This document shows positions 35,026 to 64,000 of a stretch of 64,000 nt of DNA, piece after piece. The translations under genes were made by a program, and so were the position numbers. Source of the stretch: Pomacea canaliculata (Eukaryota > Mollusca > Gastropoda > Architaenioglossa > Ampullariidae); NCBI RefSeq assembly GCF_003073045.1, contig NC_037597.1, forward strand, positions 22,706,158-22,770,157, written 5' to 3'. The first letter of the stretch is position 1; the number at the start of each line of letters is the position of its first letter. The notes beneath the pieces are model-generated. The model had not been told where the DNA came from. It made no database searches and saw only the letters and a list, made by a program, of their open reading frames with translations.

Positions 35026-35029
35026 CTTT

Positions 35030-35233: not shown

Positions 35234-35239
35234 ACATTG

Positions 35240-40374: not shown

Positions 40375-43300
40375 ATGAGAATCACACTTCTGATCGCTGT
40401 CCTTGTCTTCGGTGTCCTTTCAGAGGCACGAGCTCCACCTCCAGTAAGTTTATATTTGAGTTTATGTAATTAATCATGTGACTTTAGATGGCATAAGGGA
40501 CACCGTTTTTGCTCTTTGTCCTTTTAAAGACATCACTTATAACAGCAAATATATTATCAATACTGTTAATAAAAACTTTGTATGGTGCAGGGTAAAGATA
40601 TAAACGTTCATTTATTCATGTCCTGTTTGAAAGATTTTCTTCAGATTTTATATATTCCTATTTCAAGTATTTGCAGCGTATCACTTGTATTATTCTATTA
40701 ATATTATTCTATTATTAGTCTCTATATTATTCTGTCAAAATTTACTTACGCTGGTTACTTTTTCAGGGTGGCAGAGGTGGACCCCCACCAACAGGTGGCC
40801 CCCCACCAACAGATGCCGACGGACTAGGTAAAGGCTCTGTGATTTTTGCCCTGCCGATTTTCTTTTTTCTTTCAAAAAGCAACTTTAAATAACTAACGAT
40901 GAATAACAATATCTTACTGCATCACGTACAGCGGTGCAAAGGTTAGAAAAAATAATTTAGCATTTTATATCTCTCAGCATGAATGGTTAAGTATTACAGT
41001 AATTATTTGATGATTCGGGGATTTTATCCAATTTAAAAAAAAATTCCAAACTTGTCTACAAATAAACAACAATTATTGCTTCGTCTCCTGCTGATTACAC
41101 CGAATCACAAAATATAAACAAACATACGAGCAATATGATATTACCTATTGATTTAATATGTTACCTTAACAGGTATTAGTGTATTAGTGAAACTTAAGAC
41201 TAATAATAGTCGATGCCAAATGCTATTTCTTTTTAGTTAGTTTAATTTATTCCTTGTTACTCATTGACGAGTATAAGGTCGTACTATTTCTTTAATGCTT
41301 GTATTTTTCTTCTTTTTAAAAGCTCTTCCACCACCGACTGGTCCCGAGCCAACAGGCGATGTCCCACCACCACGAGGTAAATAATCAGTCCAGTCCAGTC
41401 AGTATTTTCACATAAACATCACTCATCCTTATGTCCCCCTCATGTTGTCATGGATGTAGACGATCATCAACTCAGGTTAACTAAGTTGGATACTTTAATG
41501 CCCAGTAGACTGGATAACAAACACTCAAACAGTTTTAACATGTTACTTTCAATCGGAGTTTAGATTTTTAGTTTTCTTCTTTGTAACTTTACTATCAAAT
41601 AAGTTTAGAATTTTCTGTTTCAGGTGGCAGACTACCCAGGGAAGCTTTTCGGGTAAAAATACAATTAATTCATCTAGGGCAATAACTTCTATTGCTAAAT
41701 ACTATTAGAAGCTTTGATGTCTTTGAAGTTTCTTAAACGTAGTACGAAGTGAGGCAGAGGCAGAACAATTACATAAGAAATGTGGAAAGTGGTGTGAAAT
41801 TAAAAGTACGGGAAACATGTGGAGGTATTTTTTGTGCATTAGCGCACAAAGTTAATTTTAACTAATGATATCTGCAGTATTTTGTATTTTTGCAGTATTT
41901 TAAAATAATAATGTATACTTACACCCACGTTGCCTTTCAGGGAGGCAGAGGCGGTCCTCCCCCGACTGGTGCCGACGGACTAGGTAAACCACATTATTGA
42001 TAATAAGCAACCTAGTAATCATGTTAAATCATCAAAAAGCAAATTTTGACAAATTTACAATCCATCATTATTATTTATGTATGCCTTTGAATATATTAAT
42101 TTAAATGTCAAATGTCAATTGTTTGGCATACTCACGCTAAAACATTTATACTTTTATTTTAGAAAACTAACAGAAGTCGATTCTATTTTTACTGTATAAC
42201 TTTAGTTTTTGTGTATTTTTTTTAAAAAGCTCTTCCACCACCGACTGGTCCCGAACCAACAGGCGATGTCCCACCACCACGAGGTAAAGACTAACTTCAG
42301 TCTTTTTACCTCCAAGTTATTATTTGTTTACCTCCTGTTTCATATTGCTCAGTGGCTTGTCTTTATGTCCTCTGGATTAAAAAACTCAATAAAGTTATTT
42401 ATATCTTTAATTTGTATCCATGTTTACTTTAATTTTCAATTGTCACTTGGCAAGAAACTTTTATTTGACATTTAATTTTGCAGATGGAAGACAAGGCAGG
42501 GGAGCTCCTCGGGTAATAAAATATTAAAGTCACACAGGGCAATATTTCTTGATTTTCTCAACACTGTAAACAACTTTTGATAAACGTGCAGTGTTGCTAA
42601 ACAGTAGGATAAAATATTGCTGGGGTAGTTTTAACAAAAGAAATATGAAAGTCAGTATAAAAATGAAGGTGATAAGCAAAGGAAAGATCATCAATTAATG
42701 GTGAAAGACATTGACAGACAATTTAATAAGCTCACGTTAATTTTACTTTTTGAAACTTTTTCTTCACACGATTCACATTATTATGGATTAAAGCAAACAG
42801 CTGGCTGTTTTTATATTAAAACACAAAGTTGATTTACTATCGGAAGCATTTGAAATGTGTCTGCTAACATCTACCATCTTTCTTTTTAGGGAGGCAGAGG
42901 TGGTCCTCCACCGACTGGTGCTGATGGACTAGGTAAACCAGATATTAGTCAATTTTTTTTCGTTTCAAAACCTGTTTATAACAAATAACAATTATTACTT
43001 CGTCTCCTGATGATTATACTGAATCACACACTCGTCGGTAAAAATTCGAATTTTAAAATGCAAGGAAACCGATATCACCAATTGATGCATTTTTAACACG
43101 TTGCCTGAAAAATGTTTTAGTGTATTAGCGAAACTCAAAGAGTAATAATAGTCAATGGTACCTTCTATTTTTTAATGCTGGTATTGTTCTTTTCTGAAAG
43201 CTCTTCCACCACCGACTGGTCCTGAACCAACAGGCGATGTCCCACCACCACGAGGTAAATTCTCAGTCCAGTCCAGTCAGTATTTTCACCTCAACAACAT

Positions 43301-46300
43301 CACTCATCCTTATGTCCACCTCATGTTGTCTACCTCGCTGTCATGGATGTAGACGAGCATGCACTCAGGCTAACTAAGTCACATACCTTATTACTCAGTC
43401 AATTAAAGTAAACAAGAGTTTCAACATGTTACTTTCAATACACTTTTAGATTTTTAGTTTTCTTCTTTGTAACTTTGTCTGAATTTAGTTTATTTCTCAA
43501 TTTCTGCTTCAGGCGAAAGACAACGCAGACAAGCTCCTCGGGTAAAAAATACGATTAATTCTCGAAGATAAATAATTGCTGAATCGCTAAATAGTGTTAC
43601 AAGCTTTGATATCTTTGAAGTTTCTAAAAGGTAGTGCGAAGTGAGTCAGAGGCAGAACTATTACATAAGAAATAAGGAAGTCAGTATGAAAATAAAATAA
43701 CATGAAACAAATGAATATATTTTCACATTATTGCACAAAGTTTATTTAAACTAATAATATCTGCAGAATTTTGTATTTGTGCAGTGTTTTAAACTAATAA
43801 TATATACTTACACCACACGCTACCTTTCAGGGAGGCAGAGGTGGTCCTCCCCCGACTGGTGCCGACGGACTAGGTAAACTACATTATTGCCAAATTTTGG
43901 TTTCAATAACGTGTTTACATTGTCAACAATTACTGCCTTATCTCCTGCTGATTACACTGAATCAAAAAGCAAATATAAGTCAGACAAATTTACAATCAAT
44001 CCAATTGTACATACTTATGTACTGTAATGCACTGCTTTAAAAGGTATTAGTGTATTTGTGAAACTTATCACTCATAATCGTCAATGCTACTTTTATTTCT
44101 TTAATACATGGTTGGCTGTTTTACAGCTCTTCCACCACCGACTGGTCCTGAGCCAACAGGTGATTTCCCACCACCGCGAGGTAAAATCAACTTCTTTTTA
44201 TCTTAAAGTCATCATTTATGTTTACTTGCTTACTATCTCACAGTGCAGTCTCTTACCCTTATGCATGTATATGGTAGATTTCCATAAAAGACTGAAGTAG
44301 TCTGATGATTATTTGACATTTATTTTCAGATGGAAGACAAGGCAGGCAGGCTGCCCAGGTAATAACACCATTAATTATCCAAAATCAATAATTGCTACGT
44401 TAATAGTGTTAAAATTTTTTACAAGTTTTCTAGGATAAGTATTAGATGTTTAGCAAAGGAAGAGTCTGGTGTAGTACATAAACAGCAGAAAAGGTGGAAA
44501 AAAGTAAACGGTTGTAGAGAAAGGAACATTCTATTCCTGCATTGATAATAGGTAAATATAATTGAACAAGTTCATATCATTTTGATTTTGTAAAGCTTTT
44601 AAGATAACATTGATATGAAGCTTTCGAGAAATAAAAAAGAATCAGTTTGTAAATATGTCAAAGAATTGTTAATGTTATGTTATGCCACCAACACATTCAG
44701 ATTTTTGTCGGGTGCATGCTGACATGAAAATTGTACTTTTATCAGGGAGGCAGAGGTGGTCCCCCACCCACTGGCGCTGATGGACTAGGTAAAATCTCTT
44801 ATATAGCCATTAATAACTAATTCTTAAGACTGGGACTGACATTGACAAAAAAAAAAAAAGTCAAGCATGGTTAGTCCAGCAACATAAGTTAAAAATTCAG
44901 AGGGCTCGCTCCTTCAAGCTGGTTAAACAAAGAGACATCACTGTTATGCGCCACAGAAGCTTTTACTAGTATGTAGTCAATGTGTACTTGTATTCATGTA
45001 GATGTATGAACATTGTGATACTAAAGCATTCGTTTATAGTTTCTCTTGTACTTATTTTTAAAGCTCTACCACCACCGACTGGTCCTGAGCCAACAGGCGA
45101 TGTCCCACCACCACGAGGTAAAGACACAACCACGTCCTTCCTGTCTCACATTGCTCTGTCTCGCATGTCCTTTGAACAATAATAAAACAATGAAGCTTTT
45201 TCATAATATTTATTTGAAATCAATGTTTACTGTAAGCTTTGTATTCGGCTTTGTAATGTAGTGAGTTTATTTTATTTGATATTTGCTGTTTCAGGTGGAA
45301 GACAGCCCAGGGAAGCTCCTCGGGTAAAAAACACGATTCATTCAGGCAGTAAAATAATTGCTGTCTCTAAATAGTGTTTAGAATCTTTAAGGTACAATCT
45401 CACAGATACATAATACAGGAACTACAATGTTTTACAATATAAAACAAACATAAGCACATAAGGTAACAGCCATTTATAGCACAAAATTAATTTTAACTAA
45501 TGATATCGCCAACATTTCTTATTTTTGCAGTCTTTTAAAATAATGATGTGTACTTACACTACATGTTACTTTTATCAGGGAGGCAGAGGTGGTCCACCAC
45601 CGACTGGTGCCGATGGACTAGGTAAACAAGATTTATGAAAATAAAGGAACCTACTTATCATGTTCAATCACTCAAAAGCAACATTTCTTTTAACAAATTT
45701 ACAATTATTACCTAAATACGCATTTCAAGATATTGTTGAAAATTTCAAATTTACCTTGTTTGGCTTATTTATGCTAAAAGCGTATGTAGCTTATAAACCT
45801 ATAATGATAGTCAATCCTATTTTTACTTATAGCTTCGTTTTGTGTGTGTTTAAAAAGCTCTTCCACCACCGACTGGTCCTGAGCCATCAGGTGATGTCCC
45901 ACCACCACGAGGTAAGTTCTAATTATAGTCTTGTTACCTTCAAGTCATTATTTGTCCCACTTCCTGTCTCAAAGTGCACAGTTGCGTATCTTTATATCTG
46001 ATGGATTAAATAAACCCAATAAAGTTGTTTTATATTTTAATTTGAATTCATTTTCACTTTAGTTTGTGCATTGGCAATAAAGTTTCATTTAACATTTGCT
46101 TTTTCAGATGCAAGACAAGGCAGGGGAGGTCCTCGGGTAATGAAATATTTAATTCACATTGGGGCAATACTTGTTGAGTCGCTCAAGAATGTTGACAATA
46201 TTTAATAAAAAAAGAAGTGTTGCTAAAGAGTAGAATAAAATATGGCTGTGATAGTGTTGTGAAAAAGCAATTATTGATGAAGGACATAGAATATTTAATA

Positions 46301-47006
46301 AGCTCATGTTTTTTTTCTTTTTGAAGCTTGTTCTTAACATCATCTATATTATTATGATGTAAAGCAACCGACTGAGTGTTTCTGTTTTAGAACACAAAGT
46401 TTATTTACTATCTGCATAGTTTGAAATATGTATCCTAACACCTAACATTTATTTCAGGGAGGCCGAGGTGGTCCTCCGCCGACTGGTGCTGACGGACTAG
46501 GTAAACCAGATTTTAGTCAATGTCTGATTTCAAAATCTTGTTTCAATTACAACAATTATTGTTTCCTGTTGATTACACTGAATCACACAAACAAATCTAA
46601 ATAAACAAACTTACAAACAAGCAGATATTACCCGTTCATGCATTCTAATATGTTGCTTCAACAATTTTTTAATGTATTAGTTAACTAAAGACTAATAAAA
46701 GTCTACACTACTTACTTTTTCTTTAATACTTGTATTTTTCTTTCTGAAAGCTCTTCCACCACCGACTGGTCCTGAACCAACAGGCGATTTCCCACCACCA
46801 CGAGGTAAAGACTAACTTCATCTTTTCACCTCTCAACCACGTCCTTCCTGTCTCACAATGCTCTCTCTCACGTGTCCTTTGAATAATAATAAAACAATGA
46901 AGTACTTTTATAATGTTAATTTGAAATTGGTGTTTACTGTAAGTTTTGTGTGTAATTTTGTAATGTAGTGAGTTTATTTTGTTTACTGTTTGCTGTTTCA
47001 GATTGA
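40375..47006 (+). CDS. Secreted Pro/Gly/Arg-rich micro-exon gene 1 (7 cassettes, 314 aa)
   Basis: Exon 1 (40375-40443) encodes the signal peptide MRITLLIAVLVFGVLSEARA plus PPP. Then follow cassettes of B, A and C exons. B: 40767-40827, 41941-41983, 42890-42932, 43831-43873, 44746-44788, 45579-45621, 46458-46500. A: 41323-41376, 42230-42283, 43201-43254, 44127-44180, 45064-45117, 45858-45911, 46751-46804. C: 41624-41652, 42484-42512, 43513-43541, 44330-44358, 45295-45323, 46108-46136, and a terminal copy from 47002. B encodes GGRGGPPPTGADGL, A ALPPPTGPEPTGDVPPPR, C GGRQPREAPR-like or DGRQGRGAPR-like residues. All junctions are GT-AG with agreeing phase; coding sum 942 nt. The first B carries an 18-nt internal duplication (GGPPPT). 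The terminal C exon gives Asp then TGA. There are no Cys residues. Per 42-residue cassette there are about 13 Pro and 10 Gly. Secreted; function unknown. A mucus, matrix, egg or defence protein are possibilities. Confidence 0.9.
40767..47003 (+). repeat. Tandem B-A-C micro-exon array of gene 1
   Basis: Seven genomic repeats of three micro-exons each with 200-500-bp introns. C exons alternate: odd copies GGRLPREAFR, GERQRRQAPR, GGRQPREAPR; even copies DGRQGRGAPR, DGRQGRQAAQ, DARQGRGGPR. Introns following odd A exons share blocks such as CAGTCCAGTCCAGTCAGT (near 41393 and 43265). The ancestral duplication unit is therefore two cassettes (84 residues). A exons are almost identical in DNA; copies 4 and 7 read GDFPPPR, copy 6 EPSGDV. 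Confidence 0.9.
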
Positions 47007-47570
47007 AGACAAGCCTAAGATGTTTCGGTAAAAACACCAGTAATATAAACAGACTGTTAGAGTGACTAATAATGTTGGATAATGTTTATACATAGTTCGT
47101 GAGTGTGTGTGTGTGTCTGTGTGGTGCTAGCTGTAGATAGAAGTGTAATCCTCTGAGAATATATTATTAGTATTATGATGCATATGTTTTTGTAAAGCCT
47201 TTTGAGTATTTGTACTATTTGTAAAATTGTATCACGAACAGTGGCAAACAATAAAAATATCTTAATCAGTCCTTTTTGAAAGAAACCACATGAAGCAATG
47301 TTTTGTATTTACCTAGCTTGCTTTGGTTAACTGTATTTTAAAGACACGTGTTACTTATTTCTATGTTTATTAGTATATAAGCTTTGTAATATTTACTTCT
47401 ATAACTTGTTGCAGAGAGAGAAGTCGATTGTTTGAGGACTTGTTGGACAATGAAGTTGATTCTTTACATAGAAGCTGATTTCTAGCAGACTAAACTGTCT
47501 GTTGTCTATAACGACATAAATGTACTGTAAGAATCCACTTTCCAAAATAAAGAATCACTGAAATACTCTT
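47007..47570 (+). terminator. 3' UTR of gene 1, with an extra intron and polyA signal
   Basis: After the stop at 47004-47006 the terminal C-like exon continues to about 47027 (TTTCG|GTAAAA). A candidate 3'-UTR exon begins at 47415 after TTGTTGCAG and aligns with the uninterrupted end of gene 2 (GGACTTGTTGGACAA). AATAAA is at 47546-47551. Both genes share the surrounding sequence TTTCCAAAATAAAGAATCAC. Confidence 0.7.
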
Positions 47571-48086
47571 CAATGTTTGTACTTTGTGTTTCTGTTTGAA
47601 AAACATGGCAGCAGACGACTAACAGCTGACCACTACTAATGCCTGCTGTGTAATATGGTTGGGATGTTGACATTAGTGAGTTCATTATTGTTCAGCCATT
47701 GAGCCGAACATTTTCTGTTCTCTTTGTTCTGTTCACACGTGGAGTGCTCATTGGTCTACCTCCTTTATTCTCCTAATCACTCTACAGTATATCATGTGAA
47801 CACTCAAGCCCAGGTTAGTGTAGGAGATCGTATAAACAACACGAAGACCGCCCAAACACCAAACCTTGGTATATACATGTAGGTGCTCTCTCAAAGGAGT
47901 TTAGCTGTTGCTCTTAATGCACCACCCCGCTGTTGGAACCAATGAAAGAAAGGATGTAAAAGGGTATTAAACATAATCATAGAGCCACTATACACATAAC
48001 TATTCACTCATCACATATATAAACACAATAACCAAAACACCTGCGCACTCCCATCTACACATAAAAGAAACAAGACTCCCTACGTA

Positions 48087-48207
48087 CATATTAGCACCAC
48101 AAAACAAACATGTACCCAAAGACTATATCATCTAATATATTCTAAAACATACTAGCACCACAAAACAAACACTATACAAAGACCACATCATCTAATATAT
48201 TCTAAAA
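48087..48207 (+). repeat. 60-bp tandem duplication
   Basis: Copy 1 at 48087-48147 and copy 2 at 48148-48207 share TAGCACCACAAAACAAACA and CATCTAATATATTCTAAAA with a few differences between them. Confidence 0.85.
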
Positions 48208-49271: not shown

Positions 49272-50797
49272 TTAAACTGTTCATCGAAGAAAGTATCTAA
49301 ATTCAGAAGAGAAATTAGGAAAACGAATCTTAGTATAAGTTATATGTTTGTTTAGAATGTTTAGCATAAAGGGCTTAGCATCCTAACACTAACCTCTTAC
49401 AGCTCTGAACTTGCAATGTGTTAAGATATTTATCAACGGCACATTGCTCCTGCCAATATCTTACAGTTGTTGTCATTCTAAGTGGTGTAAAAAAGTGTTA
49501 GGAAGTCGTTGTGTTGACTGGGCCTAGTGGTTGTTGGGACAGGCACAAGGTGCAAACACTTCTCACTATCAGAATATGACCAGAATCTACAGACAACGGG
49601 AAGAGATGTAAAACACTGCACGGCACAGTGATGGAGGTTGATTCTACACATATCCTCATAATCAACCCGTGCACAGGGACCAGAGAATGTTTAGTATAGT
49701 AACATTGTGAGAGAAGTCATCCTTCTCAAAGAGGGTATAGAAAGAATTTAGCATATTGGGTTAATCACGATCACCAACGCCCACAAGTTCCACAAGTTTT
49801 AAAGAGGGTTTACAATGCAGTTAACAAGGTTATAGAAGTAACATCATTACATTCAGTCCTGAGGTAGACACTGAACATCAACTCGACTTTGTCCTTGTAA
49901 TATTCTTTGCCTCCTTGATGATATCCAGCACTTCCCTCTAAGTTAACTATCATGATGTGCAGTACCTGTCGGTCAATTAGTCAATCAATCAACCAGTCTT
50001 TGCATCTCTATCCATATTTCTAACAGAACAGGAATACGTTTTTCACTTTTACCAGTTAATCTGCTTAGTATCTCCACCTTCACCTTAGTGTTACCAGTTA
50101 ACATGATTAATATATTTCCCGTCTCCTGTTTAAAATCTGTCATTGTTAAATACAAAACTTTAGAACTATTGTCCAAGGAAACTACAGAATCAAAGATCAA
50201 CTAAGATATCCTTCCAGTAACTGAGACCCGAGACTCTCAGTATGGTGTGGGGGCCACTCATTTAAGTCATTTAAAGAAGTGCACAGCTACATTCCATCCT
50301 TATTGTCTGTCTACCTGTCTACCTGCCTACCTGCCTTATTCTGTAGTCCAGCGTCCTCCATGTGCAACATGTCCAGCGGTACCCAGACATTTAGTTGTTC
50401 GGGTATCAGTGGAACCAGTCACGTGCCGGAAGTCGTGTCAACATGTTAACGAAAATTTACAAGGACTTCTGAGAAAAGCATTGCCATCCCCTCAGTCCTT
50501 TTTTTAAAGTTTTGTTTCCTGTTTGTTTATTTTTGTTTATTTTGATATTTGAGGTTTATTTGTGTAGAGCGACGAGGAGAATAAAGAACGTAGACCAATG
50601 AGCACTCCACGTGTGAACAGAACAAAGAGAACACAAAACGTTCGGCTCAGTGGCTGAATATTAATGAACTCACTAATGTCAACATCCCAACCATCATCTG
50701 CAGCAGACATTAATAGTGGTCACCTGTTAGTCGTCTGCTGCTACGTTTTTCAAACACAAACACAAAATACAAACATTGAAGTGTATTTCAGTGATTC

Positions 50798-50803
50798 TTT
50801 ATT
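50798..50803 (-). terminator. PolyA signal of gene 2
   Basis: AATAAA on the minus strand (plus-strand tttatt), about 135 bp past the stop, in the same sequence context as the signal of gene 1. Confidence 0.75.
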
Positions 50804-50935
50804 TTGGAAAGTGGATTCTTACAGTACAGTTCTGTCGTTATAGACACCAGACAGTTTAGTCTGCTAGAAATCAGCTTCGATGTAAAGAATCAACTTTGTT
50901 GTCCAACATGTCCTCGATCAACTGACCCAATCATC

Positions 50936-53900
50936 TTAGGCTTGTCTTCCACCTGAAACAGCAAATAGTAAACAAAATAAACTCACTACATTACAAAGCC
51001 ACAACAAACTTACAGTAAACATCGATTTTAAATTAACATTATAAACGTGCTTCATTGTTTTATTATTATTGTTCAAAGGACACGTTAGACAAAGCAATGT
51101 GAGACAGGAAGGAAGTGGTTGTGAAGTGAGTCTTTACCTCGTGGTGGTGGGACATCACCTGTTGGCTCAGGACCAGTTGGTGGTGGAAGAGCTTTCAGAA
51201 AGAAAAATACAAGCATTAAAGAAAGCGTAAGTAGTGTCGACTTTTATTAGTCTTTAGTTAACTAATACACTAATAATTTATTCAGGCAATATATTAACAT
51301 GCAGTAAAAGGTAATATCTAATTGTTTGTAAGTTTGTTTAAATTAGATTTGGTTTTTGTGATTCAGTGTAATTAACAGGAAACAATAATTGTTGTAATTG
51401 AAACAAGTTTTTGAAATCAGACATTGACTAAAATCTGGTTTACCTAGTCCGTCAGCACCAGTCGGCGGAGGACCACCTCTGCCTCCCTGAAATAAAGATG
51501 TCAGGTGTTAGGATACATACTTCAAATTATGCAGATAGTAAATCAACTTTGTGTTCTAAAACAGAAACACTCATTGTTTGCTTTACATCATAATAATACA
51601 GATCATGTGAAGAAAAGGCTTTTCAAAAGTAAAACTAGGATGAGTTTATTTAATGTCTTTAACCAGTAACTGATGATATTCATTTGCTTATCACCATCGC
51701 TTACGCCTTTCCTATTTCTTTGTCAAAACTCTACCCCAACCATAACTTGTCTTGCTCTTTAGCAACACTGCATGTTTATAAATACAAAAATAATCAACAC
51801 CCTTGAATGACTCAACAAATATGTCACTGTGTGAATTAGATATGTTATTACCCGAGGACCTTCCCTGCCTTGTCTTGCATCTGAAAAAGCAAATGTTAAA
51901 TTAAACGTGATTGCTTAAGTTAAAATGGATTTGAATTAAAGTTATGAACTAACTTCCTTGAGTTTTTAAAATACAAAAGACATAAAGATATGCAACTGTG
52001 AACTATTAAATAGAAGTCGGACAAATAATATTTCAAAGGTAAAAAGATTTAAGTTAATATTTACCTCGTGGTGGTAGGAAATCTCCTGTTGGCTGAGGAC
52101 CAGTCGGTGGTGGAAGAACTTTAAATAAAAATCACACAAAAAGTTGTTGAGTAAATGTAGGATCGACTATTATTAAATTTTAAAAAGTACATAGGCTTTT
52201 AGCACATGTATGCTAAGCAAGAGAAAACTGACATTTTAAACAATATCTTGAAATGACTATAAAGGAAATAATTTATTGTAATTTTCAAAAAATTATATTT
52301 GCTTGTTAAGTGATTCAATATGATAAGTAGGTTTCTTTATTTGCTAAAATCTTGTTTACCTAGTCCGTCGGCACCGGTCGGTGGTGGACCTCCTCTGAAT
52401 CCCTGATAAAAGTAACATGTGGTGTAAGTACACATCATTATTCTAAAAGACTGCACAACTAAGAAATACTTGAGATAATATTAACTAAAATTTACTTTGT
52501 GCTATAACATATAAGTTCACTTATTTCTTGTACTTTTATTTTCATACCGACTTCCATATCTTTTATGTAACAGCTCTGCCTCTGTCTCTTGCTACTATGT
52601 TTTAGAAACTTATAGTAACTTAAAGATTGTAAACACTATTTAAAGACAGCAATTATTTCGCTGCCTGAATGAATCGTGTTTCTTTACCCGAGGAGCTTCC
52701 CTGGGTTGTCTTCCACCTGAAATAGCAAACATCAAATTAAATAAACTCACTACATTACAAACTCGAACACAAAACGTACAGTAAACATTGGTTTGAAATA
52801 AACATTATAAATTTGCTTCATTGTTTTGTTTTGATTCAAAGGACATGTGAGACAGAGCAATGTGAGACAGGAAGTGGTTGTGTCTTTACCTCGTGGTGGT
52901 GGGACATCGCCTGTTGGCTCAGGACCAGTCGGTGGTGGAAGAGCTGTGAAACAACAAGGTATTAAAGAAATTGGAAGTAGCATAGACGTCTATGAGTGAT
53001 AAGTTTCACAAATACACTAAAACTTTTTTTGAAGACACGTATTACAGTTCATCAATATGCTATTGGATTGAATGTAAATTTGTCTGAATAACATTTGCTT
53101 TGTGATTCAGTGTAATCAGCAGGAGAGTAAGTAAAGATTGTTGATTATTGTAAACACGTTATTGAAACAAAAAATTTGGCAATAATCTTGTTTACCTAGA
53201 CCGTCGGCACCAGTTGGAGGAGGACCTCGTCTTCCACCCTGAAAGGTAACGTGTAGTGTAAGTATACATCATTATATTAAATACTGCACATATACATATA
53301 GCTTCAGATATAATAGGTTCAGATTATCTTTGCACGATAGCTTAATAAAATTTACTTCTTTTCTGTACTTTTATTTTCATCCCTTCGATATTTCTCACGT
53401 AATAGTTATGTCTCTGTCTCATTGAGTACTACCTTTTAGAAACTTTACAAAAATCACAGCTTGTAACACTATTTTTAAGGGATTCAGTAATTATTGCCCT
53501 GAGTGAATTAATTGTATTTTTACCCGAGGAGCTTCCCTAGGTTGTCTGCCACCTGAAACAGAAAATGACAAATAAAGTAAATTCATGTCATAGTTACAAA
53601 AAATGAAAATAAAAATCTAAACGTGGATTAAAAGTAACGAGATGAAACTCTTCTAGTTTTTCCTCCAATCGACTTGGAAACAGGGTAAGTGTCTTGGTCA
53701 ACCTGAGTGCATGCTTGTCTACATCCATGACAGCGAGGTAGACAACATGAGGTGGACAGAAGCATGCGTGATGTTGTTGAGGTGAAAACACTGACTGGAC
53801 TGGACTGAGAGTTTACCTCGTGGTGGTGGGACATCGCCTGTTGGCTCAGGACCAGTCGGTGGTGGAAGAGCTGTAAAAAGGGAATAATTAAAAGCATCAA

Positions 53901-56895
53901 ATAGATAAATAGTTGCATTTAATATTCTTAGTCCTAAATAATGCACTAATACCTTCTTAAGCGGCATATTAAAATGTTTAGTAGGTAACATCGGATCGCT
54001 TGTATTTTTGCTTTAAAAGCTACTTAAATTTGTTGTTGTGACTCAGTGTAATCAGCAAAAAAGGAAACAATAATTGTTGTTTAATGTAAAGAAGTTTTTG
54101 AAAACAAAAATGACTCAAATGTTGCTTTACCTAGTCCATCAGCACCAGTCGGTGGAGGACCACCTCTGCCTCCCTAAAAACAAAGATGTTAGATGTTAGC
54201 AGACACATTTCAAATGTTGCAGATAGTAAATCCACTTTGTGTTCTAAAATTGAAAAAGTTTGACTGTTTCGTTTACATTATAAGAATATAAATCTTGAGG
54301 ATAAAAAGGTAAAAAAAGGAAAAATTGAGTTCAATAAATAGTCTGTTGATGTTTTTCACGAATAGCTTTTCTTTATCAAAACTCTACCCCAGGCATATTT
54401 CGTCTTGTTCTTTGGAAACACTGCATTTTTATCAAAAGTTGTTAATACTGTTGATTTTCTCAACAAATATGTCACTGTGTGAACTAAATATTTTATTACC
54501 CGTGGACCTTCCCTGCCTTGTCTTGCATCTGAAAAAGCAAATATTAAATAAAACTTCATTGCCAAGTCACAAACGAAAATTAAAATAAACGTAGATTAAA
54601 ATTAAAGTAATGAAGCAGCTTCAGTGATTTTTTTTTACCTCAGAGGACATAAAAATAAGCGGTTGTTCACTATGAAACAGGAAGTAGGACAAAGAATGAC
54701 TTGAAGGTAAAAATACTGAAGTTAGTCTTTACCTCGTGGTGGTGGGACATCGCCTGTTGGCTCAGGACCAGTGGGTGGAGGTAGAGCTGTTTAAACACAC
54801 ACACGCGAAGTGTTATAGTAAAAGTAGGATCGACTAAGTTTGTTTTTAAAACTATACGCTTGTATTTACCATAAGTATAGCAAACAAGGTGACCTTTACA
54901 GTTTAGGTAATATATTTAATGCATTTATTTGTATGACAGTTAATAGTTGACTGGTTATAAATTTGTTGAAATTACGCTTTTGAGTGATTCAACATGATAA
55001 GTAAGTTGCTTATTGAAACAAATCTTGTTTACCTAGTCCGTCGGCACCAGTCGGGGGAGGACCGCCTCTAAATCCCTGAAAGGTAGAGTGGGATGTTAGT
55101 ACACATTATTATTTTAAAATACTAAACAAATACAAAATTCTGCAAACATCATTAGTTCAAGTTAACTTTGTGCGATAATGTAAAAAAAAAAAAAATACCC
55201 ACTTTTTTTTTTTATACCGACTTCCTTACTTCTCAAGTAATAGTTTTGTCTCTGCCTCACTTCATACTACGTTTCAGAAACTTCAAAGACATCAAAGCTT
55301 GTAACACTATTTAGCAACTCAGCATTTATTGCCCTGAGTGAATTAATCGTATTTTTACCCGAGGAGCTTCCCTAGGTTGTCGTCCACCTGAAACAGAAAA
55401 TGACAAATAAAGTAATTTCATGTCATAGTTACAGAGAAGGAAGAAAATAAACATCTGAACGAGGATAAAATTAAAGGAGTTGAAACTCTTTTGTTGTTTA
55501 ATTTAATGGACTAAGCAATAAGGTATGTGACTTAGTTAACATGAGTGCATGCTCGTCTACATCCATGACAGCGAGGTAGACAACATGAGGTGGACATAAG
55601 GATGAGTGATGTTGTTGAGGTGAAAATACTGACTGGACTGGACTGAGAATTTACCTCGTGGTGGTGGGACATCGCCTGTTGGCTCAGGACCTGTCGGTGG
55701 TGGAAGAGCTGTAAAAAAAGAAAAATACCAGAATTAAAGAAAATTAAAGTAGCATCAACTATTATTAGTCGTATTAAATTTCACTGACTCAGTAATAAAT
55801 TTTTAAGCAACGTATTAAATGCATCAGTAGTAATATCGGATTGCTTGTAATTTTTGTTAAAATAAATTTGTTTATACGACTTGGCGTAGCTAGCATGAGA
55901 GAAATAACTAATTGTTGTGTATTGTTAACAGCATTTTGAAAAGACAAATTAGCTAAAATCTCCTAATCATTCTGTAATCACTGTAAAATTCGACCTTTCA
56001 AGCTGAGAGATGTCAAACGTGAAAATACATTTTTCCTGCCCTTGCACTGTTTGATGAGATATGGTAAAACATTAATTGATGTTTATTACTAATTATTAAA
56101 TGTTGCTTCTTTGCAAAAGAGAAAATTGGCATACACAAAATACAGCGCCTTTACCTAGTCCGTCGGCACCTGTTGGTGGGGGGCCACCTCTTCCTCCCTG
56201 AAAACGTAACCAGCGTAAGTAAATTTTGACAAAATAATATAGTTGTTATGAGTGAACTGATATGCTAGAAAAAGAAAAAATAATAACAAATTTCTAAGAT
56301 AATATTTTATCAAAATAAACAGGAAGTGAATCAGTCAGTCCATTGACCGGCACTTGTCGTTGGGGGGAGCACATAGAGGGAAGCGGAAGCTGACCGGGCC
56401 CTTCACTCTTGCCTACTGTGGGGGACAGTCATGTGGTCTTGTACAGGACGACCAGTACAGTCTTTGAAGTATACAGTTTTTTTTTGTGTGTCACCGCAGT
56501 CTCGACTACCCTCCAAGGTTCCTTGAAGGATAGTCATCGACAGGATGTGGTGCCGGGTCATTTGACCGAAAAAGAACAGCTTATGTCGCTTGACTGCTGA
56601 AAGTAGAGGTTGCTGGTGTCCTGCGAGTGTGGCAACCGTGTTTCGTACAAAGTCATTGGTTCTATGTTCTTTGTATGAGATCAGGAGCAGCTTGCTCTAG
56701 AATGCCTGGCTTCTTTGTATCTCGGCGAGCAGAGTCCACGTGTCACATCTGTAGAGCAGTATCGGTGCTACTTATGACTTTCAAAAAGTCATATAATTAT
56801 TTACATAAACTCAATTATAAACTTACTGGAGGTGGAGCTCGTGCCTCTGAGAGGACGGCGAAGACAAGGACAGCGATCAGAAGGGTGATTCTCAT
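50936..56895 (-). CDS. Secreted Pro/Gly/Arg-rich micro-exon gene 2 (6 cassettes, 270 aa)
   Basis: Paralogue of gene 1 on the opposite strand. Signal exon 56895-56827. B: 56197-56155, 55075-55033, 54173-54131, 53238-53196, 52402-52360, 51486-51444. A: 55708-55655, 54786-54733, 53870-53817, 52943-52890, 52118-52065, 51191-51138. C: 55387-55359, 54528-54500, 53552-53524, 52716-52688, 51880-51852, and a terminal one from 50952. Coding sum 810 nt, all phases agree. B copies 2 and 5 read GFRGG, copy 4 GGRRG. A copy 5 is the most divergent (VLPPP..PQPTGDFLPPR). C copies 3 and 4 are both GGRQPREAPR, breaking the odd/even alternation once, consistent with loss of one cassette. The protein ends GGRQA then TAA. 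Intron 1 is enlarged by a LINE fragment. Secreted; function unknown. Confidence 0.9.
51138..56197 (-). repeat. Tandem B-A-C micro-exon array of gene 2
   Basis: Six cassettes with the same 43/54/29-nt exon sizes as genes 1 and 3. Introns after A copies 1 and 3 carry the shared GACTGGACTGGACTGA block in complement (near 53790 and 55632). A single GGRQPREAPR doublet (C3, C4) marks the likely site of an unequal exchange. Confidence 0.88.
56330..56790 (-). mobile_element. LINE fragment in intron 1 of gene 2
   Basis: The minus strand encodes ILLYRCDTWTLLAEIQR, then a stop, then LISYKEHRTNDFVRNTV, FFFGQMTRH and ILQGTLEGSR. These follow the order LLYGCESWTL, ISYKEHRTNE.VR, WFGHVTRH, ILQGTLEGGRRRGRQ of the C-terminal region of RTE/L2-like animal LINEs. 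The in-frame stop and missing RT domain show a dead 3' fragment. It has the same orientation as gene 2 and explains why this intron is 629 bp against 323 bp in gene 1 and 244 bp in gene 3. Confidence 0.85.
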
Positions 56896-57180
56896 GATGA
56901 ACGTCCTCGGGAGACCAGACAACGATGTCGGTGCAACGGTCCGGATGCCTCAACACGGCCACAGCCTCGGCTTTTATACCTGCGGGACCTGCTCACCTGC
57001 GTGCTTACCTGGTCAACGTTAGACGTCTTTGCTGTGGACATTCGATACGAGTTGTCTCCAGTTTCTGCTAACTGACACGGGGAGACAACTGAGAAGACGT
57101 GACGCGCTTTCCCAAGGCATCATGACGCAAACCGTGGACAACTCTAGAGTCTTGTTGCCTCCGAGAAGCCGACATCTGTA
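56896..57180 (-). promoter_or_regulatory. Promoter of micro-exon gene 2
   Basis: On the minus strand TATAAAA lies at 56978-56972, with two CAGGT(A/G)AGCA units just upstream (one of them CAGGTAAGCA) and the dyad AGTTGTCTCC / GGAGACAACT at 57090-57081 and 57059-57050. The block aligns with that of genes 1 and 3 out to the sequence GTTGCCTCCGAGAAGCC (57155-57172). Confidence 0.75.
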
Positions 57181-57880
57181 TGGTGAGCTGGACATATAAC
57201 TAACATATACCGTAGCAGAAGGTAACATTCACACGAAACACGGCAATTTAAATAATTTCAGTCAAACTAATACAGAAGCATTTAACGTACACCTGGAGTT
57301 TTTCCACACGGGGACACCTTTATCCTATGTGAGAAGCAGATGCGTGTGAAGGGGTTACAATCAATCAAATATTTTTTCGGATTTTGTAACGCAAACGAAT
57401 ACATGTGAAAAACAAAAATGCTGATGCAGGGATAATTTCATTTCTACGGTTTACATGCAAAGAAGGGATGAGGTCATTTAGAGTGATGATGATGATGATG
57501 ATGCTGATGTGTGTGTAAATTAACCTTATTCCCATGTGCCCTCAGTTGATAATACAGTTACAAGCATTACAATTGCGTAAAATGATTGTGCATGTGATAT
57601 TTCTTTTTTACAGTCAATCAGGGCTGTAACACAGACTAGAATTGCCCATTTTATCTGAGCAACGGCTAGGGAGAGACTCATACTATCACACGATGACTTG
57701 CCAAAGATATTTCTGATCAACTAATGAAATGCACACACACACACACGCGCACACACACACACACACTTTGACCAGAGCATACAGTATTTACTGATATAAA
57801 AGCTACGTTTATTATACTTTATTCTAAGATTGCTGCCTTTCGGGAAATTCATTGGCATGTTTCCATGTCCAGCGCACCCA
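57181..57880. other. Unique core of the divergent gene 2/gene 3 intergenic region
   Basis: About 0.7 kb between the inverted promoter blocks. It holds a GAT microsatellite (about 57484-57506) and a CA/CG run (57732-57766). No gene is seen. Confidence 0.6.
57732..57766 (+). repeat. CA/CG microsatellite
   Basis: CACACACA with a short CGCGC interruption, 35 bp, in the divergent intergenic region. Confidence 0.9.
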
Positions 57881-58188
57881 ACAGATGTCGGCCTCTCGGA
57901 GGCAACAAGACTCTACAGTTGTCCACAGTTTGACTCATGATGCCGTGGGAAAGCGCGTCACGTCTTCTCAGTTGTCTCCCCGTGTCAGTGAACAGAAAGT
58001 GGAGACAACTCGTATCGAATGTCCACAGCAGAGACGCCTAACGTTGACCAGGTAAGCAGACAGGTGAGCAGACAGGTGAGCAGACAGGTGAGCAGGTCCC
58101 GCAGGTATAAAAGCCGAGGCTGTGGCCGTGTTGAGACATCCGGACCGTTGCACCGACATCGTTGTCTGGTCTCCCGAGGACGTTCATC
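57881..58188 (+). promoter_or_regulatory. Promoter of micro-exon gene 3
   Basis: TATAAAA at 58106-58112, dyad arms at 57970-57979 and 58001-58010. Here the CAGGTGAGCAGA unit is present four times (the first as CAGGTAAGCAGA) between about 58048 and 58096, against two in genes 1 and 2. Confidence 0.75.
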
Positions 58189-61100
58189 ATGAGAATCACT
58201 CTTCTGATCGCTGTCCTTGTCTTCAGTGTCCTCTCAGAGGCACGAGCTCCACCTCCAGTAAGTTTATATTTGAGTTTATGTAATTAATCATGTGACTTTA
58301 GATGGCATGAAGGACACCGTGTTTGCTCTTTATCAGTTAAAGACATCACTTACAACACCAATATATCATTAACAAAAATTATGTATGGTCCAGTGTTAAT
58401 ATATAATCTAATTTATTCACGTCCCTTTTCCTAGAATATCTCTTTACTCATGATATCTGTATTATTCTGTCAAACTTTACTTACGCTGGTTATGTTTTCA
58501 GGGAGGCAGAGGTGGCCCCCCACCAACAGGCGCCGACGGACTAGGTAAAGGCGATATATTTTGTCCATGCCAATTTTCTCTTCTACAAGAAGTAGCATTT
58601 AATAATTAACAATCAACAATTATTTTCCATTTCTTTATCATGTGAAGCGGTGTAAGGACAGGAAAAATTATTTTAGTATTATACATCTCTCAACCTGAAA
58701 GGTCAAGTTTTACAGTAATCACATAATGACTCGGAGATTTTAGCTAATTTCTATTTTCAAAGATTTGTTTACAATAAACAACAATTAGTGATTTCTCTCC
58801 TGCTAACAAAGCTTAATCACAGCAACAAATCTACTTTTACCAAAAGTAAAGCAATCCAGTATTACCCGATGATGCATTTAATACGTTGCTTAAGGAAGTA
58901 TCAGTGAGATTCTAGAAGACTCACAATAGTTGATGCTACTTTATATTTCTTTAATGCTTATATTTTTGTTTTTTTACAGCTCTTCCACCACCGACTGGTC
59001 CTGAGCCAACAGGCGATGTCCCACCACCACGAGGTAAATTCTCAGTCCAGTCCAGTCAGTGTTTTCACCTCAACAACATCACTCATCCTTATGTCCACCT
59101 CATGTTGTCTACCTCGCTGTCATGGATGTAGACGATCATGCACACAGGTTAACTAAATCACATACCTTATTGCTTAGTCCATTAGAGTAAGCACTAAAAG
59201 AGATACATGCTACTTTTAATCCACGTTTGGATGTTTATTTTTCCTTTTCTGTAACTTTGTGTGAAATTAGTTAATTTATCAATTTCTGTTTCAGGTGGCA
59301 GACAACCTAGGGAAGCCCCTCGGGTAAAAATACATTTAATTCACTCGGGGCAATAAATAAATGCTGAGTTGCTAAATAGTGTTACAAGCTTTGATGTCTT
59401 TGAAGTTAGTACACAGCCATCAGAGACAAACTATTACATAAGAAATAAGCAGATCAGTATAAAAATAAAAGTACAAGAAACAAATCATGAAATGGATTTG
59501 TTTTACATCATACAAGGTTAATTTGAACTAACATATATGAAGTATTTTGTATTTGTGCAGTGTTTTAAAATAATGATGTGTACTTACAACCCACGTTAAC
59601 TTTCAGGGATTTAGAGGTGGTCCTCCTCCAACTGGTGCCGACGGACTAGGTAAACCAGATTTTTGCCAATTAGTAACCTAGTGATGACGTTGATTCACTA
59701 AAACGAGAATGTTATTTTAACAAATTTATAACTAATTAATTATTACCTATCTATTTCTTTGTACACATTTTTTAAAATGTCAAGATTAACTTCTGTGTGT
59801 TTGAAAAGCTCTTCCACCACCGACTGGTCCTGAGCCAACAGGCGATGTCCCACCACCACGAGGTAAAGACTAACTTCAATGTTTTACCTTCAAGTCGTTA
59901 TTTGTCCTGATTCCTGTTTCATAGTGTATACTCACTTATCTTTATGTCTTCAGCCTTAAAAAAATCTATTTGCAGTTGTTTGATATCTTTATTTAAATCC
60001 AGGTTTAGTTTAATTTTGTTTATGCATTGACAATAAAGTTTCATTTAACATTTGCTTTTCCAGATGCAAGACAAGGCAGGGAAGGTCCACGGGTAATAAC
60101 ATATTTAATTCACACAGAGACATATTTGTTGAGAAAATCAACATTGTTAACAACTTTTGATAAACATGAAGTGTTGCTAAAGAGGAGATCGAAATGAGGC
60201 TGGGGTAGAGTTTGAAAAAGAAAGATGAAAGGCGCTATAAAAGTGATAAAGAAATGAAAATTATCAGTTAATCGTAAAAGACATGAACAGACTACTTAAT
60301 AACTCTTTTATTTGAACTATTTTTCTTTTTTTTTTTCGCCAGATGTATGTGAATATGATGTAAAAACCAGTTAATTTTTTCAACTTTAGAACACAAAGTT
60401 GATTTACTATCTGCAGCATTTGAAATGTGTCTGTTAACATCTACATCTTCCTTTTAGGGAGGCAGAGGTGGTCCACCCCCGACTGGTGCTGATGGACTAG
60501 GTAAAGAGACATTTTAGTTCATTTTTGTTTTCAAAAGCATGTTTATAGTAAACAGCAATAATTGTTTTCTTTCCTTCTGATTACACTTAATCCCAACCAC
60601 CAATCTAAGTGGCTGTTTAAACAAACATACAAGCGATCGGATGTCACACATCAGTGCATTTTAATATGTCGCTTTAAAGAGGTATTAAAGTATTATTGAA
60701 GACTAATACTATTAACTGCAATTTATTTATTTAATTTTTTGCTTTTTTTCTAAAAGCTCTTCCACCACCGACTGGTCCTGAACCAACAGGCGATGTCCCA
60801 CCACCACGAGGTAAATTCTCAGTCCAGTCCAGTCAGTATTTTCACCTCAACAACATCACTCATCCTTATGTCCACCTCATGTTGTCTACCTCGTTGTCAT
60901 GGATGTAGACGAGCATGCACTCAGGTTGACTAAGTCATATACCTTATTGCCTAGTCCTTTAGAGGAAGCACTAACAGAGTTTCAGCTTTCAATCCATGTT
61001 TAGTTTTCTATTTTTCTTCTTTGTAACTATGTCTGGAATAACTTATTTCTCAATTTCTGTTTCAGGTGGCAGACAACCTAGGGAAGCTCCCCGGGTAAAA

Positions 61101-64000
61101 ATACAATTAATTCCCTCAGGGCAATAATTACTGAGTCGCTATATATTGTTACAAACTTTGGTATCTTTTAAGTTTCGTAAGTGAAGTGAGGCAAATATTA
61201 TTATTATGTAAGAAATATAAAAGTGGGTATGAAAGTAAAAGTACAGTAAACAAATAATTTTTTCTGTTATAGCACAAAGTTAATTTGAACTAATGATATC
61301 TGCAGCAATTTATATTTGTTCAGTATTTTAAAATAATGATGTGTAATTACACCACACTCTACCTTTCAGGGATTTAGAGGTGGTCCTCCTCCAACTGGTG
61401 CCGACGGACTAGGTAAAGTAGATTTTATAGAAGAAGTAACCTAATGACCATGCTGAATCACTTAACAAGTAAATGTAATTTAAAAAATACCATCAATTAT
61501 TACCTATATATGAATTTTAATATATTGCTTAAATTTTTTGTCATGCTTATGTTAAAAGCGTATGGATGCACTAAAAATAATATTAAATCATACATTTACT
61601 GTATTGCTTTGCTTTTGTGCTTTTTTTCTGAAAGCTCTTCCACCACCGACTGGTCCTGAGCCAACAGGCGATGTCCCACCACCAAGAGGTAAAGACTAAC
61701 TTTAGTCTTGTTACCTTCAAGTTAATTTTTTATCCGACTCCCTGTTTTATTGTGAACAGTTGCACATCATTAGTCTGTCATGGATTTCAAAATAATCACT
61801 GACATTGTTTGACATATTTAATTTGAACCCACATTTTTTTCAGATGGAAGACAAGGCAGGCAGGGTCCTCGGGTAACGACACAATTATTTAACAAATTTT
61901 TGTAATTTTTGTATTTATAGAGTTTTAATACCTTTGATATTTTTTGGAATTTGGGAATTAAACATAACATGTGCAATAAAGATAAAATCTGATGCATCTT
62001 GTAATAATTTGAAAAGGCGGCGAAAAGTTAAAGATGAAACAAACAGTTTAAGAAGCCTTTGTCAATGGATTCATAGCGGTAATAATTTAATAAGTTTATG
62101 TTATTTTACTTTGTAAAGAATTTGAGGTATAAACAAGAAACCATTTGTCGAATCTAACAAGCTTTTGGAATAAATTTGAAATTAAGACACCAACACCTGA
62201 CGAATGCATGTTTTCATGAAAATGTACTTTTATCAGGGAGGCAGAGGTGGTCCCCCACCGACCGGTGCCGACGGACTAGGTAAAAATTTTGTCATTTTCT
62301 TGATGAAAACACTTCTTTAAATAAACAATTAACCTGTTTTACTTTGCTGGTTCTAATGGATCTTGTAAAGAATGCCTACTAGGTACAAAAATCTATAAAC
62401 AAATAATAACAATAGCAACAATAATAACAATAATAATAGTAAAGGTAAGGGCAGCAAGATTTTTCAAAAAAAATTTTTAAACACAAAATGTGAAATAAAC
62501 AAAGTTTAAGACATGTTTTCTTGTTTACCAACAACAGTAGATTCTAATATGTCTCTTTGTCTCCTCTCAAGTTCTTCCACCACCAACTGGACCCGAACCA
62601 ACTGGAGAACCCCTAGGTCCTCAGCCAACAGGCGATGTCCCACCACCACGAGGTAAATGTTTAGTCCAGCACAGACAGTGTCTTCACCTAAGCTACATCA
62701 CTGCTCTACCCTTTCCCACTCAAGCTGTCTACCCCATGAATGTAGATATGTATGCACTCAAATGTACTTAGTCTTTTACCTTTGCGCTGAATCAGCTTCA
62801 AGATGCTACTTTGAATGCATGCTTAGTTTTATTTTCTTCCATGCTGTTGTTGCTGTGATATATCAATTTAATTGTCATTTGATGTTTCAGGTGGAAGACA
62901 ACCCAGGGAAGCTCCTCGGGTAATGAAAACATAACATTCACATACAGAACTGTAGTTAATGAGTCACTGAAGCGTTTCTAAAAAGTAGTAGTAAGTATGG
63001 CAGAGATAAGAATACAACAGAAGACAGTATGAAAAAGGGGTTATGCAGAAGAAGATTGTGACATATTGGCGCACTTTGTTGACAAAAGTAGACAAAGTCC
63101 GAGTGCATCATTCGAACTAGCTTGTCTACTACTAACTTCATCTTCACCCTTAGTCAACTTCTAGAGAATTGCAGTTGACACTGTACATGGTTTTCAATCA
63201 TCTCACCAAAGCGTTTGAAAAACTCTCTTGCTGCTCCTGCACTTTTCAGGATTTTCATTGCCCTAGTTACATAGAATTGTATCGAATAAAGTTGATTTTA
63301 ACCAATGAAATCTAGAGTATTTTGATTGATGTATGTCAAATCAAACCATCTTTCTTTTTCAGGGAGGCAGAGGTGGTCCTCCACCCACTGGCGCCGACGG
63401 ACTAGGTAAAAAAAATGTTTTGCCATTTATTTAAAAAAAATTGATTATAATTAGAAACAATTAATGAGTCCTCTCCCACCGACCATGTTGAATAAGAAAA
63501 GGCAAATAAAATGTAAACAAACTTCCATGCAATTACTCATTATCTATCTACGCATTTTAATATATTGTTTAAAAGGGTCAAATGTTCAACATGTTTGGGC
63601 TAAAAGCAAATATATGTATTTTTTTCAAGAAACGGATGGGGTTTTTTTTATTAAAAGAGCTAATAATAATCACTGATACTTTCTATTTTCTTAATGCTTG
63701 ATTTTTTTTTTAAACAAAGCTCTTCCACCACCAACTGGTCCTGAGCCAGCAGGCGATGTCCCACCACCACGAGGTAAATTTCAATTTTTTTTACCTTAGT
63801 AATAATTTCTCCTACTTTCACCCTGACTCACAGAGTACAGTCGCTCATCTTTATAACCTCTGGTTTGAAATAAAACACGGAATCCGTTTTATATTCTTAG
63901 TTCAAATTCATGTTTATCATGATGGCTTTGCTATGGAGTTTAACCGAACATTTTCTTTTTCAGACGGAAGACAAGGCAGGCGGGGTCCCCAGGTAATAAC
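58189..64000 (+). CDS. Secreted Pro/Gly/Arg-rich micro-exon gene 3 (at least 6 cassettes, partial)
   Basis: Signal exon 58189-58257. B: 58502-58544, 59607-59649, 60458-60500, 61370-61412, 62237-62279, 63363-63405. A: 58980-59033, 59809-59862, 60757-60810, 61635-61688, 62572-62652, 63720-63773. C: 59295-59323, 60064-60092, 61066-61094, 61844-61872, 62891-62919, 63964-63992. All junctions GT-AG, phases agree; the gene runs past the window. C exons alternate strictly: odd copies GGRQPREAPR; even copies DARQGREGPR, DGRQGRQGPR, DGRQGRRGPQ. B copies 2 and 4 read GFRGG. A copy 5 is 81 nt: 27 nt (nine codons) have been added in frame around PEPTGEPLGPQPTG, an internal expansion. The signal peptide differs from gene 1 by one residue (FSVLS for FGVLS). 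Same unknown secreted function. Confidence 0.9.
58502..63992 (+). repeat. Tandem B-A-C micro-exon array of gene 3
   Basis: Six cassettes in strict odd/even alternation. Introns after A copies 1 and 3 contain the shared CAGTCCAGTCCAGTCAGT block (near 59046 and 60822) and GTCTACCTCG..ATGTAGACGA; the copy after A5 is diverged. Even B exons are preceded by a long conserved intron tail with ACACAAAGTTGATTT or CACAAAGTTAATTTGAACTA. Confidence 0.88.

Follow-up and report, generated by a model that had tools for sequence, protein, structure and literature searches.

The window analysed here, a stretch of 64,000 nucleotides (nt) from the golden apple snail, the gastropod Pomacea canaliculata (NCBI RefSeq assembly GCF_003073045.1, contig NC_037597.1, positions 22,706,158 to 22,770,157 of the forward strand), contains a cluster of three paralogous genes in which an exon for a putative signal peptide (S) is followed by a long array of very small exons of three kinds, here called B, A and C. 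Gene 2, on the minus strand, lies between genes 1 and 3 on the plus strand; it converges with gene 1 and diverges from gene 3. When the whole window was scanned for similarity to typed consensus copies (threshold 66%) with no splice-site requirement, B, A and C units turned up only in 40767-63992 and none in 1-40000. Repeat exons inside the window number 20 in gene 1, 17 in gene 2 and 18 in gene 3, and 53 of these 55 measure exactly 43 (B), 54 (A) or 29 nt (C). The remaining two are B1 of gene 1, at 61 nt, and A5 of gene 3, at 81 nt; they exceed the standard length by 18 and 27 nt, both multiples of three, and splice sites served to fix their borders. Gene 3 runs past the window end, where it gains one B, one A, a stop exon and a 3' untranslated region (3'-UTR) exon (coordinates above 64000 continue the numbering of the window), which brings the full total to 57 repeat exons (20 B, 20 A and 17 C; 55 of standard length) and three signal exons. 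The 57 introns span 149-629 nt, and coding sequence makes up about 14-15% of each array (gene 3 counted to the window end).

Exon positions are based on the similarity scan together with a splice-site and phase model, except where splice-site borders are indicated. Gene 1 (plus strand) begins with a conserved 5' flank (40104-40374, alike in genes 2 and 3, with TATAAAAG at 40292-40299) and a signal exon of 69 nt (40375-40443). These are followed by B1 (40767-40827, the 61-nt exon with splice-site borders), A1 (41323-41376), C1 (41624-41652), B2 (41941-41983), A2 (42230-42283), C2 (42484-42512), B3 (42890-42932), A3 (43201-43254), C3 (43513-43541), B4 (43831-43873), A4 (44127-44180), C4 (44330-44358), B5 (44746-44788), A5 (45064-45117), C5 (45295-45323), B6 (45579-45621), A6 (45858-45911), C6 (46108-46136), B7 (46458-46500) and A7 (46751-46804). 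The gene closes with a C-like stop exon of 26 nt (47002-47027, TGA at 47004-47006) and a 3'-UTR exon (47415-47570, AATAAA at 47546-47551, 3' end approximate).

Gene 2 is read on the minus strand from its conserved 5' flank (56896-57166, TATAAAAG at 56978-56971) and signal exon (56827-56895) through B1 (56155-56197), A1 (55655-55708), C1 (55359-55387), B2 (55033-55075), A2 (54733-54786), C2 (54500-54528), B3 (54131-54173), A3 (53817-53870), C3 (53524-53552), B4 (53196-53238), A4 (52890-52943), C4 (52688-52716), B5 (52360-52402), A5 (52065-52118), C5 (51852-51880), B6 (51444-51486) and A6 (51138-51191) to a combined stop and 3'-UTR exon (50785-50952, GRQA before the stop, polyadenylation (polyA) signal at 50803-50798, 3' end approximate).

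Gene 3 (plus strand) comprises the conserved 5' flank (57865-58188, TATAAAAG at 58106-58113), the signal exon (58189-58257), B1 (58502-58544), A1 (58980-59033), C1 (59295-59323), B2 (59607-59649), A2 (59809-59862), C2 (60064-60092), B3 (60458-60500), A3 (60757-60810), C3 (61066-61094), B4 (61370-61412), A4 (61635-61688), C4 (61844-61872), B5 (62237-62279), A5 (62572-62652, the 81-nt exon with splice-site borders), C5 (62891-62919), B6 (63363-63405), A6 (63720-63773) and C6 (63964-63992), the last exon within the window. Beyond it follow B7 (64187-64229), A7 (64493-64546), the stop exon (64855-64880) and a 3'-UTR exon from 65124 (AATAAA at 65252-65257).

All three genes share the TATAAAAG TATA box and a polyA signal, and their 5' flanks are 91-97% alike (91% between 40104-40485 and 56785-57166, 95% between 40259-40527 and 58073-58341). 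An assembly duplication as the origin of the three genes was ruled out, as the 5' flanks differ by 5-9% and the contents of the arrays differ as well.

The exon order is S-(B-A-C)n with zero exceptions in the three genes, each of which has five to six complete cassette rounds and then a final B-A, the number of cassettes differing among them. Acceptors are AG in 57/57 cases and donors GT in 60/60 (59 GTAA and one GTGAG). The phases (B 0-1, A 1-1, C 1-0) close the cycle 0-1-1-0, so that one cassette (43 + 54 + 29 nt) amounts to 126 nt or 42 residues. The coding region of every gene terminates within a degenerate exon resembling C, at the codon following the A junction codon in genes 1 and 3 (PPPRD and PPPRV) and past GGRQA in gene 2. 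The spliced frames are open to the stop over 314, 270 and 317 residues in genes 1, 2 and 3; the chance of 901 open codons at the local base composition is about 7e-29, a rough value that assumes independent codons. From sites, phase and selection taken together we infer that the arrays are spliced as modelled. The preliminary description of this DNA, which had proposed about 57 micro-exons of 29, 43 or 54 nt in the fixed order B-A-C behind a signal exon, with GT-AG borders and agreeing phases and a Cys-free cassette of 126 nt and 42 residues rich in Pro, Gly and Arg, is borne out on these points. Compared with the size limits for micro-exons given in literature abstracts, from 27-30 up to 51 nt, C falls within all except the 27-nt limit, B within the 51-nt limit only and A (54 nt) within none. 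At the 3' end, genes 1 and 3 carry an intron between the stop exon and the 3'-UTR exon (47002-47570 in gene 1), and the corresponding region of gene 2 is continuous (50785-50952); imprecise loss of an intron, or gain of one in the 3' UTR, may account for this difference.

Among the 19 standard B copies, differences at codon positions 1/2/3 amount to 0.037/0.025/0.343, and among the 19 standard A copies to 0.044/0.023/0.106. Since these differences are mainly silent, B and A look like selected coding exons. The ratio of replacement to silent divergence (dN/dS), pooled over the 55 standard-length exons and excluding the 61-nt B and the 81-nt A, is 0.057 for B and 0.231 for A; the ratios are rough, since all pairs of short, non-independent copies are pooled. 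Six positional counterparts between genes, five taken from the cassette tree described below and one (g1.7/g2.6) from intron identity, differ by 36 silent and 10 replacement changes (dN/dS 0.111), and the peptide is identical in 13/19 standard A and 14/19 standard B copies. Judged from these patterns, purifying selection acts on the protein sequence that B and A encode, and the direction of the effect is clear. A non-coding RNA was ruled out, as no Rfam family was found at the gathering score in 40000-64000 and the differences in B and A concentrate at third codon positions, a pattern that C does not have. At fourfold silent sites, A copies differ less than B copies (0.132 vs 0.335, permutation p 0.012, in a comparison made after the contrast had been noticed), and the introns flanking A and B are about equally diverged despite this contrast; splicing signals in A, or short-tract conversion, are perhaps responsible for the low silent divergence of A.

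The signal exon encodes MRITLLIAVLVFxVLSEARAPPP, which reads by eye as a hydrophobic N-terminus with Arg2 and, together with a plausible SEA|RA cleavage site, suggests secretion. With cleavage after SEA assumed, the mature chains would comprise 296, 252 and 299 residues, with 30-31% Pro, 23-24% Gly and 11-12% Arg, a predicted isoelectric point of about 11 and zero Cys, Lys, Tyr, Trp, His and Asn. The commonest cassette is GGRGGPPPTGADGL-ALPPPTGPEPTGDVPPPR-GGRQPREAPR. Thr always follows Pro in the mature chains (21/21, 18/18 and 21/21). Arg occupies codon 3 of B and codon 18 of A in 19/19 standard copies each and C codons 2 and 5 in 17/17 each, with a silent change at each of the two C codons; it stands at C codon 9 in 15/17, and the remaining C codons vary. 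A known domain was ruled out for the predicted protein, for which no Pfam family was found at E<=1 and no PDB sequence at E<=0.1 (the latter with the first 149 residues of gene 2 as query).

The spacing of Arg raises the possibility of a polyprotein precursor in which subtilisin-like convertases would cut the conserved R-x-x-R sites formed where A, C and B meet, setting free many Pro-rich peptides, nearly identical and each about 29 residues long (GGPPPTGADGLALPPPTGPEPTGDVPPPR). Each chain holds 16-17 R-x-x-R motifs, about three per cassette by eye, and the Arg residues at C positions 2 and 5 are kept in 17/17 copies while their neighbours vary. However, there is one dibasic pair per chain only, and a charged linker would predict conservation of Arg equally, which makes a precursor possible but unlikely.

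The composition also recalls the mammalian salivary proline-rich proteins, which are Pro/Gly-rich, basic, Cys-free and repetitive, are encoded in a cluster and have their repeats within one exon. The snail chains share the Pro/Gly-rich, basic, Cys-free and repetitive character and the small cluster, whereas their repeats are split over exons, and neither Pfam (E<=1) nor the protein search (E<=0.001, 7,991 scored candidates) revealed a homologue. In a plant-eating snail, a tannin-binding or lubricating secretion of this sort would be a special case of the extracellular polymer discussed below. Pro and Gly exceeding 50% in a basic, Cys-free, repetitive product of a small gene cluster would fit such a role, but the likeness is one of composition and Gln/Glu is low compared with the mammalian proteins, and we regard it as quite unlikely.

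Genome searches covered the 440 Mb of the Pomacea canaliculata genome, and their counts are lower bounds. The 5' flank with the signal exon gave three matches genome-wide, 3/3 at the cluster. With a protein query, 31 matches came up at E<=10; the locus accounts for 29 of them, with E values reaching 0.17, and the E values of the other two exceed 8. The exact A-exon motif occurred in 20 places, 20/20 at the locus; with one mismatch it was found in 16 places elsewhere, against 15 for a reversed control with up to one mismatch. All seven matches (7/7) of one A-C intron also fell at the locus. In these searches, by flank and signal exon, protein, A motif and A-C intron, the family is confined to one locus, C8:22.746-22.790 Mb (the window is 22706158-22770157 of contig C8). 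An origin of the units as a repeat or transposon was ruled out, the flank with the signal exon, the A-C intron and the exact A motif all lying at this one place.

Some 19 kb from the window end, at 82965-84164 in extended coordinates, lies a truncated fourth copy, consisting of A-C-B-A plus a tail; it lacks a signal exon, and its first A has no AG where the exon would be expected to begin. Open frames that recur there suggest, on inspection by eye, that the copy belongs to a segmental duplication which took in the end of gene 3 together with its neighbours. In the stretch C8:22789121-22791037 (82965-84880), 569 nt that include other repeats separate C from B, and the duplicated segment repeats a gene that, by eye, resembles a GMC oxidoreductase. 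The truncated copy demonstrates that decay does occur at the locus, and the three genes, which are not found in the protein collection discussed below, might likewise be relics, once coding and now silent, with selection in the past only. We consider this very improbable, since the 60 exons of the three genes are without a broken splice site or premature stop, whereas the truncated copy lacks both the signal exon and the AG of its first A.

A tree of the 17 complete cassettes, exons and introns together, separates two groups (98/98 support), 9/14 of its inner branches being well supported. The odd group contains positions 1, 3 and 5 of genes 1 and 3 and positions 1, 3 and 4 of gene 2; the even group combines positions 2, 4 and 6 of genes 1 and 3 with positions 2 and 5 of gene 2. 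Within them, cassettes pair between genes (g1.5/g2.4, g1.6/g2.5, g2.1/g3.1, g2.2/g3.2 and g2.3/g3.3; supports 97-100/96-99). The C peptides alternate too, odd ones reading GRQPREAPR in 7/9 cases and even ones starting with (A/G)RQGR in 8/8. On the simplest reading, a unit of two cassettes would have expanded into the array prior to the separation of the genes, and an even cassette would later have disappeared from gene 2 between the present third and fourth.

Mean intron identity, measured over the ungapped columns of global alignments, is 0.73 for B-A, 0.75 for A-C and 0.73 for C-B introns, against a shuffled baseline of 0.69 that is itself high and comes from B-A introns only. The maximum between repeat introns is 0.91, and the three S-B introns average 0.84. 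One odd-cassette A-C intron (43255-43512) has six other matches in the genome, four of them 84-87% identical and two 78% and 69%; the four closest are more alike than most other repeat introns. Taken as a whole, this looks like an old array rather than one undergoing rapid homogenisation.

These data bear on the proposal, made in the preliminary description, of a diversifying family, taken here as one in which splicing and recombination generate protein variants as in schistosome micro-exon genes (MEGs). On enumeration, in-frame skipping is possible for A, for C+B or for a whole cassette at every position tried; C is the most variable part (dN/dS 0.58 overall and 0.74 between odd and even), and cassette number differs between genes. 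However, the frame shifts when a single B, a single C, B+A or A+C is skipped, single B and C because these exons are not symmetric; B and A, with their largely identical peptides, are under purifying selection; and the introns are not homogenised, unlike those of the schistosome polymorphic mucins (above 93-94% in passages of PMC2576457). Neither the symmetrical, skipped exons of the MEG type nor the homogenised introns of the mucin type hold here, for which reason the term diversifying is unsupported, the shared cassette history likewise speaking against it, with C leaving some room. A diversifying function is in our view highly unlikely. Alternative splicing may nevertheless occur, and C is free to vary at several codons. 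In a lineage-specific family of secreted polymers built on this phase cycle, regulated skipping of A, C+B or a whole cassette would yield from each gene a ladder of chain lengths and charge patterns by which splicing tunes the material, a variant that we consider rather unlikely.

With moderate confidence we favour three functional genes for secreted, Cys-free, largely disordered Pro/Gly/Arg polymers of about 250-300 residues that are constitutively spliced. The signal exon would be spliced to the repeated three-exon cassettes with all exons included, the B and A exons would form Pro/Thr-rich spacers (PPPTG, PEPTGD), and the C exons and borders would place Arg at fixed spacing. The result would be an extended, alternately charged chain, presumably disordered and O-glycosylated at Pro-Thr-Gly sites, and overall probably a glycosylated polymer. 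Such a polymer could be used in bulk outside the cell, acting in mucus, a gland secretion or an egg covering, where it would bind polyanions, glycans or polyphenols. Unequal exchange would add or remove whole cassettes with the frame intact, because a cassette begins and ends in phase 0, and chain length could evolve in this way.

Several points weigh against this polymer interpretation. The 17 C copies differ by 0.14/0.278/0.213 at the three codon positions, without a clear coding signature, and their pooled dN/dS is 0.582. C is the weakest case for coding and is tied to B and A through splice sites, phase and open frame; some of its replacement differences reflect the distinction between odd and even cassettes, dN/dS being 0.376 within and 0.739 between the two groups (labels from the cassette tree, incomplete terminal B-A units being labelled by position). 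Lys, Cys and Tyr are absent from the chains, which disfavours the usual covalent cross-links of elastin, collagen, disulfide and dihydroxyphenylalanine (DOPA) materials, and a soluble or glycan- or charge-associated polymer is therefore likelier than a cross-linked fibre. Finally, the 270-residue query, scored against 7,991 candidates, matched no catalogued protein at E<=0.001, and an alignment of three 82-residue pieces (two true N-termini, the third joining the signal exon of gene 1 to a later cassette) found none at E<=1 among 855 candidates, in searches that admitted products of about 45-143 and 149-472 residues. In a local control at equal database size, full chains matched one another at about 1e-139 or better and a 50-residue N-terminus at about 1e-21. 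The searches were empty though an annotated copy would score strongly, so that the protein collection appears to lack these genes at the admitted lengths, which can mean missed annotation or very restricted expression.

Within the scopes searched, Pfam, PDB and the protein collection hold no relative of the family that could be recognised. The mollusc origin implied by the preliminary description is correct. The claim of a three-gene cluster of secreted proteins holds for the paralogous and repetitive genes; secretion is apparent only, gene 2 lies on the minus strand, and gene 3 exceeds the window. In open-access literature, with Pomacea texts represented by passages, no published account of a three-exon cassette protein or of its peptide strings was found. 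The locus is a clean example from nature of many tiny exons encoding a mollusc protein that is repetitive and apparently secreted, with selection backing most of the exons, and the failure to find this protein in a very large collection suggests that standard gene prediction can miss such genes. Three paralogues, a truncated copy and a largely resolved history would allow a direct test of array growth, phase keeping and splicing.

Elsewhere in the window, a neighbouring BTB-kelch gene has a kelch part (25460-26749) that is 100% identical over 430 residues to the Pomacea canaliculata 'hypothetical protein C0Q70_14185'. A single-exon open frame of 1433 residues at 7605-11906 has no Pfam match at E<=0.001, and a tandem array at 35029-35234 consists of 6.1 copies of a 34-nt unit with 98% matches.

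Among known systems, the sea-urchin Sp185/333 genes are clustered and have secreted mosaic products whose elements lie in one exon and vary strongly between genes. The snail genes are likewise clustered and their products composed of short elements, whereas each element is its own exon, stands in a fixed cycle and is mostly conserved. In the Schistosoma mansoni polymorphic mucins (SmPoMuc), as set out in passages of PMC2576457, one 27-bp exon is repeated per unit of about 1 kb in gene clusters, and intronic parts are more than 93-94% identical through concerted evolution. Clustered genes, tandem units with a very small exon and an intron, and a repetitive protein are common to both, the SmPoMuc repeats being mucin-like and rich in Ser/Thr/Pro. 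In contrast, the snail unit has three exons per 0.8-1.2 kb, its introns are 73-75% identical (baseline 69%), and the mature chain consists almost wholly of repeats; the two are compared here by description, sequence kinship aside.

According to passages of PMC4350168 and PMC4015677, the signal peptide of schistosome MEGs is followed by very small exons that hold most of the coding sequence, and these exons are symmetrical and skipped. Passages of PMC4350168 add that MEGs show raised dN/dS, measured between orthologues of different species, and that they 'appear to be restricted to platyhelminths', and PMC4015677 notes micro-exon genes in other organisms too. The comparison with MEGs drawn earlier holds as an architectural likeness, the snail coding region being mostly small exons (57 of 29-81 nt and three signal exons of 69 nt), and does not extend beyond analogy: only A is symmetric (1-1), dN/dS is low in B and A and 0.582 in C (paralogous copies being compared here and orthologues in MEGs), and the host is a mollusc, not a platyhelminth. 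In spider silk genes and Coccidioides SOWgp, as described in passages of PMC2576457, protein repeats are tandem exon+intron units with homogenised introns, in silk beyond the exons. The snail genes share the tandem units, of which 17 complete ones align, but here the introns have diverged and the exons are conserved. That tandem exon+intron units can encode repetitive proteins is known already; what is new is a three-exon, closed-phase cassette that forms nearly the whole mature chain, with B and A kept by purifying selection, at one snail locus.

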